The notes below the pieces were generated by a model. The model ran no database searches. It had not been told where the DNA came from and saw only the letters and a list, made by a program, of their open reading frames with translations. A program made the position numbers and the translations under genes. Below are positions 3,918 through 30,469 of a stretch of DNA of 64,000 nucleotides, piece after piece. Position 1 is the stretch's first letter. Every line of letters begins with the position of its first letter. Source of the DNA: Robiginitalea myxolifaciens (GTDB lineage: Bacteria; Bacteroidota; Bacteroidia; Flavobacteriales; Flavobacteriaceae); NCBI RefSeq assembly GCF_900115205.1, contig NZ_FOYQ01000001.1:1453240-1517239 (forward strand), in the 5' to 3' direction.

Positions 3918-4880
3918 ATGGCTCCGGTTCCCGGCAACACGGCTCATAAGGATATCCCGGGAAACCCTTCCACAGCGAAGAGCAGCAAGAAAAAACTGAA
4001 CGATCGCAGTAATGGGGAGGAATTAAGGATACTGTCGGAGGAGGATTGGGATTTCTGGCAACGCGAAGGTTATATTGTCATTAAGAGTGCGATATCCCGG
4101 GAACAGGCCCGGCGAACCGCTGACTTTCTCTGGGAATTCGAAGAGAAAGATCCGGCCGACCCGGCTACCTGGTATGCGCCTCCCCGGGCCGAAATGCAAA
4201 TGAAGGAATTGGCCGGCACGGGCATGGTGGAAGTCTATAACCACCAGTTGCTTTGGGAGAATCGCCAAAGCCCGAAAATCCACCAGGCCTTTGCAGATAT
4301 CTGGGGTACCGAGAAATTATGGGTAACCATCGATAGGGCAAACCTCAACGTCCCTAACCGACCTGGCCATGTTCAGAAAGGATTTATCCATTGGGATTAC
4401 GATCCGGAAACGCGCCCCCAAAATGTTCAGGGAGTACTGGCTCTTGCAGACCAGACCGATCCGGCTATGGGTGGATTCCAGTGTATCCCCTGGCTTTATC
4501 GCAATTACGACTCCTGGAAAAAGAGTCAGCCGGAAGACCGGGATCGCTTTCAACCCGATATCACCGGGTTGGAGGATAAATTGGTGAAAGTGCCTCTGGA
4601 GGCCGGGGATTTATTGATTTTCAATAGTCTGCTGGCTCATGGGATACGCCCCAACCAATCCAGGGACAAAGTACGCCTGGCGCAATATATTTCCATGATG
4701 CCGGCCGAACCTGAGAATGAAGAAATCCTCAATTGGCGCATACACAGTTGGAAGCACCGAATTGCCCCGGAAGGCTATGCCTTTCCAGGAGATCCACGCA
4801 ACTGGGAGCAGGACAGATATACCACGGCTGAGCTTACTTCCCTTGGAGAGAAGCTATTGGGGCTTACCCCCTGGGCGTAG
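3918..4880 (+). CDS. phytanoyl-CoA dioxygenase (PhyH) family protein
   Basis: Fe(II)/2-oxoglutarate-dependent dioxygenase of the PhyH family; the substrate cannot be told from sequence. The double-stranded beta-helix signature is complete. The HxD pair sits in GFIHWDYDPET, the distal His in LLAHGIRPNQS, and an Arg for 2-oxoglutarate follows in RDKVRLAQYISM. The helix opening the domain is EDWDFWQREGYIVIKSAIS. I chose ATG 3918 because AAGGGAG stands 5 nt upstream. The frame also allows ATG 3870 and a TTG at 3798, which would add a low-complexity Ser/Lys/Thr tail. The tail up to about residue 35 shows no domain. It ends at a bidirectional terminator shared with the cytochrome gene. Confidence 0.85.
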   Translation: MAPVPGNTAHKDIPGNPSTAKSSKKKLNDRSNGEELRILSEEDWDFWQREGYIVIKSAISREQARRTADFLWEFEEKDPADPATWYAPPRAEMQMKELAGTGMVEVYNHQLLWENRQSPKIHQAFADIWGTEKLWVTIDRANLNVPNRPGHVQKGFIHWDYDPETRPQNVQGVLALADQTDPAMGGFQCIPWLYRNYDSWKKSQPEDRDRFQPDITGLEDKLVKVPLEAGDLLIFNSLLAHGIRPNQSRDKVRLAQYISMMPAEPENEEILNWRIHSWKHRIAPEGYAFPGDPRNWEQDRYTTAELTSLGEKLLGLTPWA

Positions 4881-28094: not shown

Positions 28095-29237
28095 ATGTCA
28101 GTTACAGATAATACCTCATTAAAATTAACCAAAGAAGTACCTGCAGCGGAAGACTTTCTACCCCTGTTGGGAACTGACCACGTAGAACTATATGTAGGCA
28201 ATGCCAAACAGGCCGCCCATTACTACATGGCTGCCTGGGGCTTTCAGCCGCTGGCCTATGCGGGCCTGGAAACCGGACTTAAAGACCGGACATCCTACGT
28301 GTTGCAACAGGACAAGATCCGGTTGGTCCTGACCGCCCCAATGAAACCCGGAGGTGAAATCAACCGCCACATTGAACAACACGGGGATGGCGTAAAGGCT
28401 ATCGCCCTATGGGTAGATGATGCCCGGAAGAGTTTTGAAGAAACCTTTAAGCGCGGTGCAGAACCCTATATGGAACCAGAAGTTCGCGAGGACGAGAACG
28501 GGAAAGTAATCCTTTCCGGGATCCACACCTACGGGGAAACTGTACATATTTTCGTGGAGCGTTCGGCTTACCAGGGCACTTTCCTGCCGGGTTATCGCGC
28601 CTGGAATCCCCATTACCAGCCCGAGTCTACCGGATTGAAATATATCGACCATATGGTGGGTAATGTCGGATGGAACGAAATGAATAAGTGGTGTGAATTT
28701 TACGCCAAGGTGATGGGCTTTGCCCAACTGGTTTCTTTCGATGATAAGGACATATCTACCGAATATACCGCGCTTATGAGTAAGGTAATGAGCAATGGCA
28801 ACGGGAGAATCAAGTTTCCGATCAACGAACCTGCCGAAGGGCGGAAAAAGTCCCAGATCGAAGAATACATCGAATTTTACAACGGGGCAGGCGTACAGCA
28901 TATGGCCCTGGCCACGGATAATATCATCGAGACCGTATCCGGCCTGCGCGACCGCGGGGTGGAATTCCTGCGCGTTCCCGGCGAATACTACGAAGATGTC
29001 CTGGATCGGGTAGGAGAAATCGATGAAGACCTCGAACCTTTACGCGAACTGGGAATCCTGATCGATCGGGACGACGAGGGATACCTCTTGCAGATCTTTA
29101 CCAAGCCAATCCTGGACCGCCCCACGCTTTTTATCGAAATCATCCAGCGAAAAGGGGCCAAATCCTTTGGGAAAGGCAATTTCAAGGCGCTTTTTGAGGC
29201 TATCGAACGGGAGCAGGAATCCCGGGGAACCCTTTAA
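28095..29237 (+). CDS. hppD: 4-hydroxyphenylpyruvate dioxygenase
   Basis: Converts 4-hydroxyphenylpyruvate to homogentisate in tyrosine degradation. Two vicinal-oxygen-chelate domains are present, the first beginning LGTDHVELYVGNAKQAAHYY. The iron ligands are visible: His in YIDHMVGNV, His in VQHMALATDNI and Glu in LFIEIIQRKG. The length of 380 aa fits bacterial enzymes. Homogentisate dioxygenase is not in this window. No TAnnTTTG box is clear in the 250 nt upstream, which holds nothing else I recognise. Confidence 0.95.
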   Translation: MSVTDNTSLKLTKEVPAAEDFLPLLGTDHVELYVGNAKQAAHYYMAAWGFQPLAYAGLETGLKDRTSYVLQQDKIRLVLTAPMKPGGEINRHIEQHGDGVKAIALWVDDARKSFEETFKRGAEPYMEPEVREDENGKVILSGIHTYGETVHIFVERSAYQGTFLPGYRAWNPHYQPESTGLKYIDHMVGNVGWNEMNKWCEFYAKVMGFAQLVSFDDKDISTEYTALMSKVMSNGNGRIKFPINEPAEGRKKSQIEEYIEFYNGAGVQHMALATDNIIETVSGLRDRGVEFLRVPGEYYEDVLDRVGEIDEDLEPLRELGILIDRDDEGYLLQIFTKPILDRPTLFIEIIQRKGAKSFGKGNFKALFEAIEREQESRGTL

Positions 29238-29317
29238 ATCCGGCCGGAACCGATAAAGTTGTGTTAAACCTGAAGTTAAAAACCGTTAAAGGGGAACATC
29301 CGGGTAAAATGATGTTC

Positions 29318-29325
29318 TACATTTG
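29318..29325 (+). promoter_or_regulatory. -7 box TACATTTG in front of the candidate RNA gene
   Basis: Exact TAnnTTTG match within the hppD downstream spacer, 81 nt after the hppD stop. No coding start lies downstream before a terminator, so it most likely serves a small RNA. A TTG at -33 is not evident. Confidence 0.55.
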
Positions 29326-29328
29326 ATA

Positions 29329-29437
29329 TCAACAAGGGGTGGTTCCCTTGTAACTTTAAGTATTGGTTTTTCATAATTTAAAGTTTGGTTGGTTATTTAG
29401 GAAAAGCTCTGATCGCTAGATCGGGGCTTTTTTTTTT
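29329..29437 (+). ncRNA. candidate structured small RNA (about 105-110 nt)
   Basis: Starts just after the -7 box TACATTTG and ends in the T-tract of a strong terminator. It has three perfectly or nearly paired hairpins. Hairpin 1 is ACAAGGGG (29332-29339) with TCCCTTGT (29344-29351), loop TGGT. Hairpin 2 is AACTTTAA (29352-29359) with TTAAAGTT (29378-29385), loop 18 nt. Hairpin 3 is the terminator AAAGCTCTGATC (29403-29414) with GATCGGGGCTTT (29419-29430), loop GCTA. No ORF with a start codon of note lies within it. Flavobacterial small RNAs such as 6S-like RNA are about this long, but I cannot tell the family. Confidence 0.6.
29403..29437 (+). terminator. rho-independent terminator of the candidate RNA
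   Basis: 12-bp stem with two G-U pairs, tetraloop GCTA, followed by ten T's (29428-29437). hppD ends 165 nt upstream, so it is more likely to end a separate short transcript than hppD. Confidence 0.8.
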
Positions 29438-29617
29438 GGAACCGCTATGCTTCAAAAGGCCAACGCACCAGCCCCCTTGGAATTTGGGATTTGGTGGCTG
29501 GAGTTTACCACCGCGCGCAGCGGTTTGTAATATTTTGGAACAAATCTTGTTTAAATAGTAGTTATGAAAAGGTTCCTTCCCCCTGGGGAAAGAAAATTTT
29601 AATGAAATTTGTAGGAA
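29438..29617. other. non-coding spacer between the candidate RNA and the DUF3108 operon
   Basis: After the terminator, 180 nt follow without a supported gene. They include a reverse-complement copy of the intergenic repeat (about 29478-29494) and an AT-rich run (29525-29610) just before the start at 29618. No consensus TAnnTTTG box is found close to the start. Confidence 0.5.
29478..29494 (-). repeat. second copy of the AAATCCCAAATTCCA repeat (reverse complement)
   Basis: TGGAATTTGGGATTTGG here is the reverse complement of CCAAATCCCAAATTCCA, which contains the 15-mer AAATCCCAAATTCCA found at 858-872. Both copies are intergenic. Confidence 0.55.
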
Positions 29618-30469
29618 ATGAAAGCGCTCAAAATCATATTGATATCCATGCTGCTATGGACCCCCCAGACCGAAGGGCAGGCCCAGGCAGAATTGGTGGC
29701 CAATTCCGACAAACCCGTCAGTCACAGCCCGAAACCTGCTGAACGGAATCCGGTTCCGGCTTTTAAATCCGGGGAATGGCTCAAGTTCAGGATACATTAT
29801 GGCATCTTCAATGCCAGCTATGCCACCCTGCACCTGACCAGTGATAATTTGGATGGAAAGCCGGTGTACCACGTTACCGGGAAAGGACAAACTACAGGAT
29901 TGGCGCGTTTGTTTTTTAAAGTAGACGACACTTACGAAAGTTATTTTGGTAAGGATAACGGCCAACCGTACCGGTTTATCCGCAAAATCGATGAAGGGGG
30001 CTACACCAAGGATATTGAAATAAATTTTGATTACCCGAAACAGGAAGCCGAACTACACGATAAGAAGGCCAAAAAGAAGATGGACTTTGAAATTGAGCCA
30101 GGCATACAGGACCTGATTTCCGGTTTCTATTACCTTAGGGATTATTACGAGGTAAGCGACTTGCGCATAGGCGAGAGCATTGAACTGGACATGCTCTATG
30201 ACGATGATGGGATTTTCAAATTCCGCCTGAAATACCTGGGGAAAGAGATCTTAAAAACCAAATTCGGCAAAGTCGAATGCCTGAAATTCCGTCCGTATGT
30301 ACAAAACGGACGTGTGTTTAAAGAGCAGGAAAGCCTATCTTTGTGGGTGTCCAATGATATGAATAAGATTCCTATCCGAATCGAGGCCGATCTGCGTGTC
30401 GGATCTATTAAAGCCGATTTGGACGGATACAATGCCCTGAGGAATCAATTCAAGATTATCATGGACTAA
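29618..30469 (+). CDS. DUF3108 domain-containing periplasmic protein
   Basis: 283-aa secreted protein. A signal peptide (LKIILISMLLWTPQTEGQAQ) precedes a beta-rich domain matching DUF3108. It has GEWLKFRIHYGIFNASYATLHL, YHVTGKGQTTGLARLFFKVDDTYES, a paired-strand middle, and a final FGKVECLKFRPYVQNGRVF with IRIEADLRVGSIKADLDGY. The function is unknown. First gene of a compact operon: tryptophan 2,3-dioxygenase follows after 6 nt, M23 peptidase after 10 nt, and pgi overlaps that by 20 nt. Confidence 0.9.
   Translation: MKALKIILISMLLWTPQTEGQAQAELVANSDKPVSHSPKPAERNPVPAFKSGEWLKFRIHYGIFNASYATLHLTSDNLDGKPVYHVTGKGQTTGLARLFFKVDDTYESYFGKDNGQPYRFIRKIDEGGYTKDIEINFDYPKQEAELHDKKAKKKMDFEIEPGIQDLISGFYYLRDYYEVSDLRIGESIELDMLYDDDGIFKFRLKYLGKEILKTKFGKVECLKFRPYVQNGRVFKEQESLSLWVSNDMNKIPIRIEADLRVGSIKADLDGYNALRNQFKIIMD

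Follow-up and report, generated by a model that had tools for sequence, protein, structure and literature searches.

The FopS and GibS small RNAs (sRNAs) of Bacteroides thetaiotaomicron, which occur in multiple copies, are reported to pair near the start codons of SusC mRNAs and to block their translation (PMC11697453). Since its members are described as pairing near SusC start codons, FopS is the nearest functional model for the RNA presented here. The likeness, within the published features compared, is that these are sRNAs of Bacteroidota, that several copies occur, and that start-codon pairing is also what we propose for the present RNA. In Flavobacterium psychrophilum, a transcriptome study named transcripts Rfp1-89, among which Rfp18 is described as conserved within the genus and highly structured; its deletion is reported to lower the mRNA of two metalloproteases (PMC9723704). 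Flavo-1 RNA (RF01705) is likewise a candidate sRNA family of flavobacteria.

The element analyzed here lies in a window of 64,000 nucleotides, the whole stretch of DNA from the marine flavobacterium Robiginitalea myxolifaciens that was analyzed. By the tests made, it is a member of neither the FopS nor the 6S family. Against the FopS family (RF04319) it scored 17.4 bits, compared with a cut-off of 56. A preliminary description of the locus had named a flavobacterial 6S-like family as one to be searched for; no 6S family is found up to an E value of 5 at 29100-29700, where the Rfam search returned nothing at gathering score and 13 sub-threshold matches. The best sub-threshold score at the element belongs to the PyrR binding site (RF00515; 29.3 bits, cut-off 54), and the named genes that flank the element are not pyr genes. 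At gathering score, Rfam 15 places no family in the window and none at the element in nine related loci.

The comparison with the described sRNAs also brings out differences in structure and target. FopS, as described, has a single-stranded 5' seed stretch and one terminator hairpin, whereas the present RNA has two hairpins before its tail. FopS pairs with SusC starts, whereas neither of the complement motifs AACCAAC and CCAACC occurs within 60 nt upstream in any of the 30 SusC-type loci of the R. myxolifaciens genome that were checked for exact motifs (from 42 matches, only 4 of which lie above the TIGR04056 cut-off). A FopS-like control of SusC genes is not supported in this genome. Rfp18 resembles the present RNA in being a flavobacterial sRNA and in its reported effect on proteases, to be compared with the exported hydrolase that is a candidate target here. 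The pairing region predicted for Rfp18 is given as its third stem-loop, whereas the present RNA would pair through hairpin 2 and the tail. Flavo-1 RNA matches elsewhere than at the element: in Flavobacterium cauense, it lies on the minus strand at 4240-4329 of locus L175 (71.8 bits), about 1.5 kb from the sRNA.

Layout of the element and its transcription signals

The features that make up the element are all on the plus strand. A -7 box, TACATTTG, which the preliminary description had pointed out, is present at 29318-29325; by consensus, we take it to be a promoter element of the Bacteroidota type. Of 76 copies, 56 have the pattern TA..TTTG 5' of the conserved core, in nearly every case at a distance of 48-57 nt (shuffle mean 2.3); in a control region 150 nt further upstream, 2 of the 76 have it. 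With the start taken about 5-8 nt 3' of the -7 box, the sRNA would span 29330-29437. A covariance model of the family matches 29326-29434 with 128.2 bits, the window itself being part of the model seed.

Hairpin 1 (29332-29351) consists of eight pairs, one of them G-U, with an apical UGGU. Hairpin 2 (29352-29385) carries the segment UUUUUCAU in its apical part; this anti-start segment (29367-29374) is the complement of AUGAAAAA, which is start-like, and is conserved in divergent copies. Both of the 8-bp internal hairpins proposed earlier are present, but hairpin 2 is longer than proposed, with 10 outer pairs in the fold. The tail, GGUUGGUUA (29387-29395), is unpaired in the fold. It is followed by an intrinsic terminator (29399-29437), in which the hairpin at 29399-29434 overlaps a run of ten T at 29428-29437. 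The terminator and its ten T had been recognized before, but its stem has 16 pairs in the fold rather than 12. The stem begins 162 nt after the stop of the upstream hppD-like gene (29237), close to the 165 nt first given.

The predicted fold of 29324-29440 is far better than that of dinucleotide shuffles (z -5.67), none of 200 being as good, and the same holds when the terminator is removed (29324-29400; z -3.49, again 0 of 200). Among the reading frames of at least 60 amino acids that were listed, none overlaps 29326-29437, in line with the earlier view that no credible open reading frame is present. A simple promoter and terminator scan listed neither the sRNA promoter nor the sRNA terminator. 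The promoter was missed because the promoter type of the scan is sigma-70; the terminator was probably missed because its T tract pairs with the A-rich arm.

Three GTTAA repeats at 29263-29289, in steps of 12 and 10 nt, lie 5' of the promoter and are a candidate regulator site. The exact pattern GTTAAN{6,8}GTTAAN{4,6}GTTAA occurs at one place in the R. myxolifaciens genome and at none in the reversed control, and at the element it is present in every Robiginitalea genome found to carry one, nine in all. When two mismatches were allowed, 11 places matched compared with 16 in the control, so that no excess indicative of a GTTAA regulon was seen in this genome. A regulator that reads the repeats may control synthesis of the sRNA in Robiginitalea.

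Conservation and distribution of the family

Conservation of the stems in relatives had been set beforehand as the test on which the preliminary description would stand or fall, and the description withstood it. In an alignment of 17 sequences (A2), 98.9% of the cells pair, and 13 of 28 pairs changed on both sides, compared with a shuffle mean of 7.8; none of 500 shuffles reached 13. When the partners were slid by one column, the covariation score fell from 0.377 to 0.111 or less. Both-side changes are found in 5 of 6 pairs of hairpin 1 and in 8 of 13 pairs of the terminator. In hairpin 2, six of nine pairs are invariant and none changed on both sides; since this stem is near-invariant, the case for it comes from folding and not from covariation, and it is predicted in most, not all, of 41 folds. 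In an alignment of 36 diverse members (A4), all seven pairs of hairpin 1 changed on both sides, 64 cells did so compared with 21.6 by shuffling, and 88.6% of the cells pair. These pairs include 23 G-U cells compared with 6 A-C cells, a bias that fits the plus strand as the RNA.

The invariance of the core in A2, A4 and the scan of named genomes is partly a matter of choice, because these sequences were selected by patterns that contain the core. A less biased count comes from 41 divergent copies found by model, in which TTTCATAA is present in 35, TTCAT in all 41 and GTTGGTTA in 36, with one-base variants in the remainder. The selection patterns did not include hairpin 1, the terminator or the -7 box, except for one set of 140 copies, for which a T run and a box (TA..TTTG or GACTTTTG) were required.

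The element is widespread among relatives. In a DNA search of 60 relatives, eight of the nine other Robiginitalea matched strongly; the one that did not, G008, is a genome that is 74% complete. Among other genera, four genomes (G010, G020, G027 and G035) matched strongly and two (G030 and G032) partly. In this search the element was more alike among relatives than its flanks. Covariance model R1, built from the 17 copies of A2, matched 282 of 395 Flavobacteriaceae genomes at an E value of 0.01 or less, the weak matches being partly doubtful; by hand count, 124 matched at 1e-6 or less, and 77 reached at least 98 bits. The 113 genomes that gave no R1 match at 0.01 may still contain members that strict filters conceal. 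Six genomes with weak R1 matches (G074, G138, G144, G170, G182 and G329) gave no match to a second model, R2, at 1e-3 or less, so that false matches may be present among the weak R1 matches; R2 carries only seven pairs, because the aligner misplaced terminators. Within the R. myxolifaciens genome the element is single-copy as tested, with one full match in a DNA search and one R2 match at 1e-3 or less; R1 gave two further matches at 0.01 or less. Inspection of 49 R1 matches revealed two (L055 and L065) that are opposite-strand matches at a terminator and not copies.

The named loci inspected number at least 80 and hold at least 82 copies. Genera with copies include Arenibacter, Maribacter, Zobellia, Allomuricauda, Christiangramia, Salegentibacter, Gillisia, Kordia, Galbibacter, Myroides and Flavobacterium, among others; a copy filed under Limnohabitans is probably a binning error. 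Of 246 genomes sampled across the order, 37 matched R2 at 1e-3 or less, 35 of them from the same family; at least 15 genomes of that family gave no R2 match, and the matches of G044 and G449, from two other families of this order, are weak. In a class-wide sample, 8 of 296 genomes matched, six in the family and two (G850 and G662) in one other family. The copies in these two genomes (L440 and L441) have the same or a very similar core, a terminator and a TAnnTTTG box. As an RNA-like element is carried by members of another family, the RNA family may extend outside Flavobacteriaceae or may have moved between lineages. Another class-wide match, L442, was rejected as a copy; it is merely the antisense of a lipoprotein start.

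Several genomes harbor more than one copy. Tandem copies spaced about 280-320 nt from start to start are found in Cerina litoralis, Kordia and relatives (L093, at 1498-1606 and 1817-1926; L126; L083; L087), every one with its own -7 box and terminator. Genome G032, of 2.6 Mb, has three dispersed copies of a divergent form (L038, L039 and L041), each with a TACCTTTG box, and no DUF3108 gene was seen near them in the 2.1-kb loci examined. Judged from these comparisons, the element would be one copy of an sRNA family spread through Flavobacteriaceae. The preliminary description read the locus as a short independent transcript; this reading gains support from the compensatory changes and from the recurrence of the element with box and terminator, also where no hppD is found upstream.

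We are highly confident that the element is a real sRNA gene, one that is not described in the literature found. No paper listed in the literature survey, apart from the two cited above, described it. R2 matches 25 genomes of one group (g134, taken from its sequences to be Flavobacterium), and none of that group is among the misses listed; one F. psychrophilum Rfp may therefore be the present RNA.

Flavobacteria are important degraders of marine polymers, and to our knowledge few of their regulatory RNAs have been studied. A family that extends across many genera, and that the scans made did not match to any family of Rfam 15, offers a direct handle, as one gene could be deleted in several species.

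The anti-start core and candidate targets

The reverse complement of the core, TAACCAACCAAACTTTAAATTATGAAAAACC, resembles a gene start. It falls at the 98.8th percentile of 509 start regions of the R. myxolifaciens genome and at the 99.92nd when compared with sampled ATGs; its percentile among the starts of other genomes is 100 in G228, 81 in G105, 71.7 in G222 and 79.6 in G053. None of 401 intergenic pieces (112 nt) holds an equally start-like ATG. Because the complement of the core is so start-like in comparison with both starts and intergenic pieces, pairing at start codons is the leading idea. Translation initiation in flavobacteria relies little on Shine-Dalgarno pairing. We favor a trans-acting antisense RNA of about 105 nt that would pair at start codons, to which we assign a probability of roughly 0.5, its targets being candidates. 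It is probable that the sRNA controls the translation of some messages, since the core of the RNA is complementary to a typical gene start. A more ambitious and more tentative proposal is that of a family-wide "anti-start" sRNA, whose core, as the complement of an idealised flavobacterial start (AACCAACC..AAAUUAUGAAAAA), reads the consensus start context and tunes exported enzymes. If the anti-start reading is true, it would show how antisense control operates where an A-rich context marks start sites.

The proposed mechanism is as follows. Transcription would start just 3' of the -7 box and end at the terminator. Hairpin 1 would shield the 5' end or bind a protein. The UUUUCAU of hairpin 2, together with the tail, would pair with start regions of the idealised type in a small set of mRNAs. 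Such pairing would block ribosome entry, the mRNA of an exported amidohydrolase being the candidate.

The searches for targets gave weak signals. A loose pattern for a long mRNA complement found six places in the R. myxolifaciens genome, the element itself and five with three mismatches, compared with three in the control; by this search, the genome has no long antisense target apart from the element. The exact target pattern found four places in the 60 relatives besides the RNA itself. One of these (L256, G005:C48:145877-145903) belongs to an aquaporin-like gene of Robiginitalea aurantiaca, whose start region is strongly complementary to the sRNA core. CCAACC, the complement of the tail, was first counted upstream of starts in a sample of 364 start regions, where it was found in 14 (permutation mean 3.27, rank 1 of 15). 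This enrichment was predicted beforehand for held-out DNA and failed there, with 4 of 331 start regions, a permutation mean of 3.40 and rank 5 of 15. The same test gave 0 in G228 and 5 in G105 (rank 1), 1 in G222 (rank 1), in which no sRNA was detected, and 1 in the outgroup G053 (rank 2). A post hoc split by a crude signal-peptide rule placed CCAACC in 16 of 274 exported compared with 2 of 421 other genes; for the held-out part alone, the split ranked 3 of 15.

Overall, the start regions of the R. myxolifaciens genome pair with the core no better than chance (mean z -0.11 for 599 genes), and five of the 599 reach a z of -3.5 or lower. The exported amidohydrolase has the strongest core duplex of 367 of these start regions and the third lowest z of the 599. 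When a profile of the antisense core was run against 10 Robiginitalea genomes, the best match other than the RNA itself was the start of the exported amidohydrolase in G001 (E 9.5e-5). Orthologs in four of the 10 Robiginitalea genomes (G000, G001, G003 and G005) have z values of -3.6 to -7.3, that of G005 being reached only if the second of its two possible starts is used, and the other six miss -3.5. The amidohydrolase was found through G000 and G001, and without these two genomes 2 of 8 pair strongly. In other genera none of eight orthologs reaches -3.5, the best being that of G027 (-2.8); a clear sRNA copy is present in only two of those eight genomes, G027 and G035. The exported amidohydrolase may be a target, and we regard it as a candidate and not as a result.

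Alternative readings and the genomic neighborhood

A DUF3108 gene (29618-30469; PF11306, E 4.6e-59) lies no more than 800 nt downstream on the same strand in at least 126 of 138 distinct strict-core copies, a set derived from 162 loci, some of which are the same place twice. The element could accordingly be a leader that acts in cis and attenuates transcription of the DUF3108 operon, its terminator being the off state. We consider this improbable. A separate promoter-like element, TAATATTTTGG, is present 5' of the DUF3108 gene (29528-29538), and 61 of 76 copies have its pattern, TA.{1,2}TTTGG, 3' of the core, where shuffles gave 3.7 on average and 13 at most; some copies are in tandem or have no DUF3108 in reach, and no alternative antiterminator is apparent in the predicted folds viewed. 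The hppD-like gene (28095-29237; Glyoxalase/HPPD Pfam matches) has a counterpart upstream of at least 98 of the 138 copies, as suits a 3' untranslated region or terminator of hppD. Such an origin is nonetheless very improbable, as the element has its own -7 box and is kept where no hppD match is found upstream, for example in Allomuricauda and some Maribacter loci. On the evidence of gene order, hppD is not a constant neighbor; the element appears not to be an hppD feature, and its stable neighbor is DUF3108. The tandem copies, and the dispersed copies without DUF3108 in the loci examined, favor an RNA that acts in trans over an hppD terminator or a leader.

An independent sRNA need not act by mRNA pairing. 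It is possible, though rather unlikely, that the conserved core and the UGGU loop titrate a protein, such as an RRM protein. Consistent with titration are the weakness of the mRNA target signals, the presence of two conserved motifs in loop or unpaired positions (UGGU and GGUUGGUUA), and the contrast, in hairpin 1, between a freely varying stem and a loop that changes little in most members. However, a binding site for a protein would have no need of the specific complementarity to start regions that the core shows, and some Flavobacterium and Paenimyroides copies have lost the UGGU loop yet keep the core. The ATG of the antisense core has an excellent context for a start, and could therefore open a small reading frame on the minus strand. 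This is the least probable of the readings, as the terminator and the -7 box face the plus strand and the stems covary. Moreover, a reading by eye gives this frame about 32 codons in the window and about 8 in several other Robiginitalea, and this difference in length indicates that no minus-strand protein is conserved. Antisense pairing at start codons remains the reading that we favor.

Besides the DUF3108 gene, a TDO-like gene lies no more than 1,700 nt from at least 116 of the 138 distinct copies. Shortly 5' of the DUF3108 gene in the window, a 12-codon frame beginning with ATG was noted by eye at 29564-29602. It is overlapped by an inverted repeat on the minus strand, at 29595-29573, that was listed by the terminator scan.
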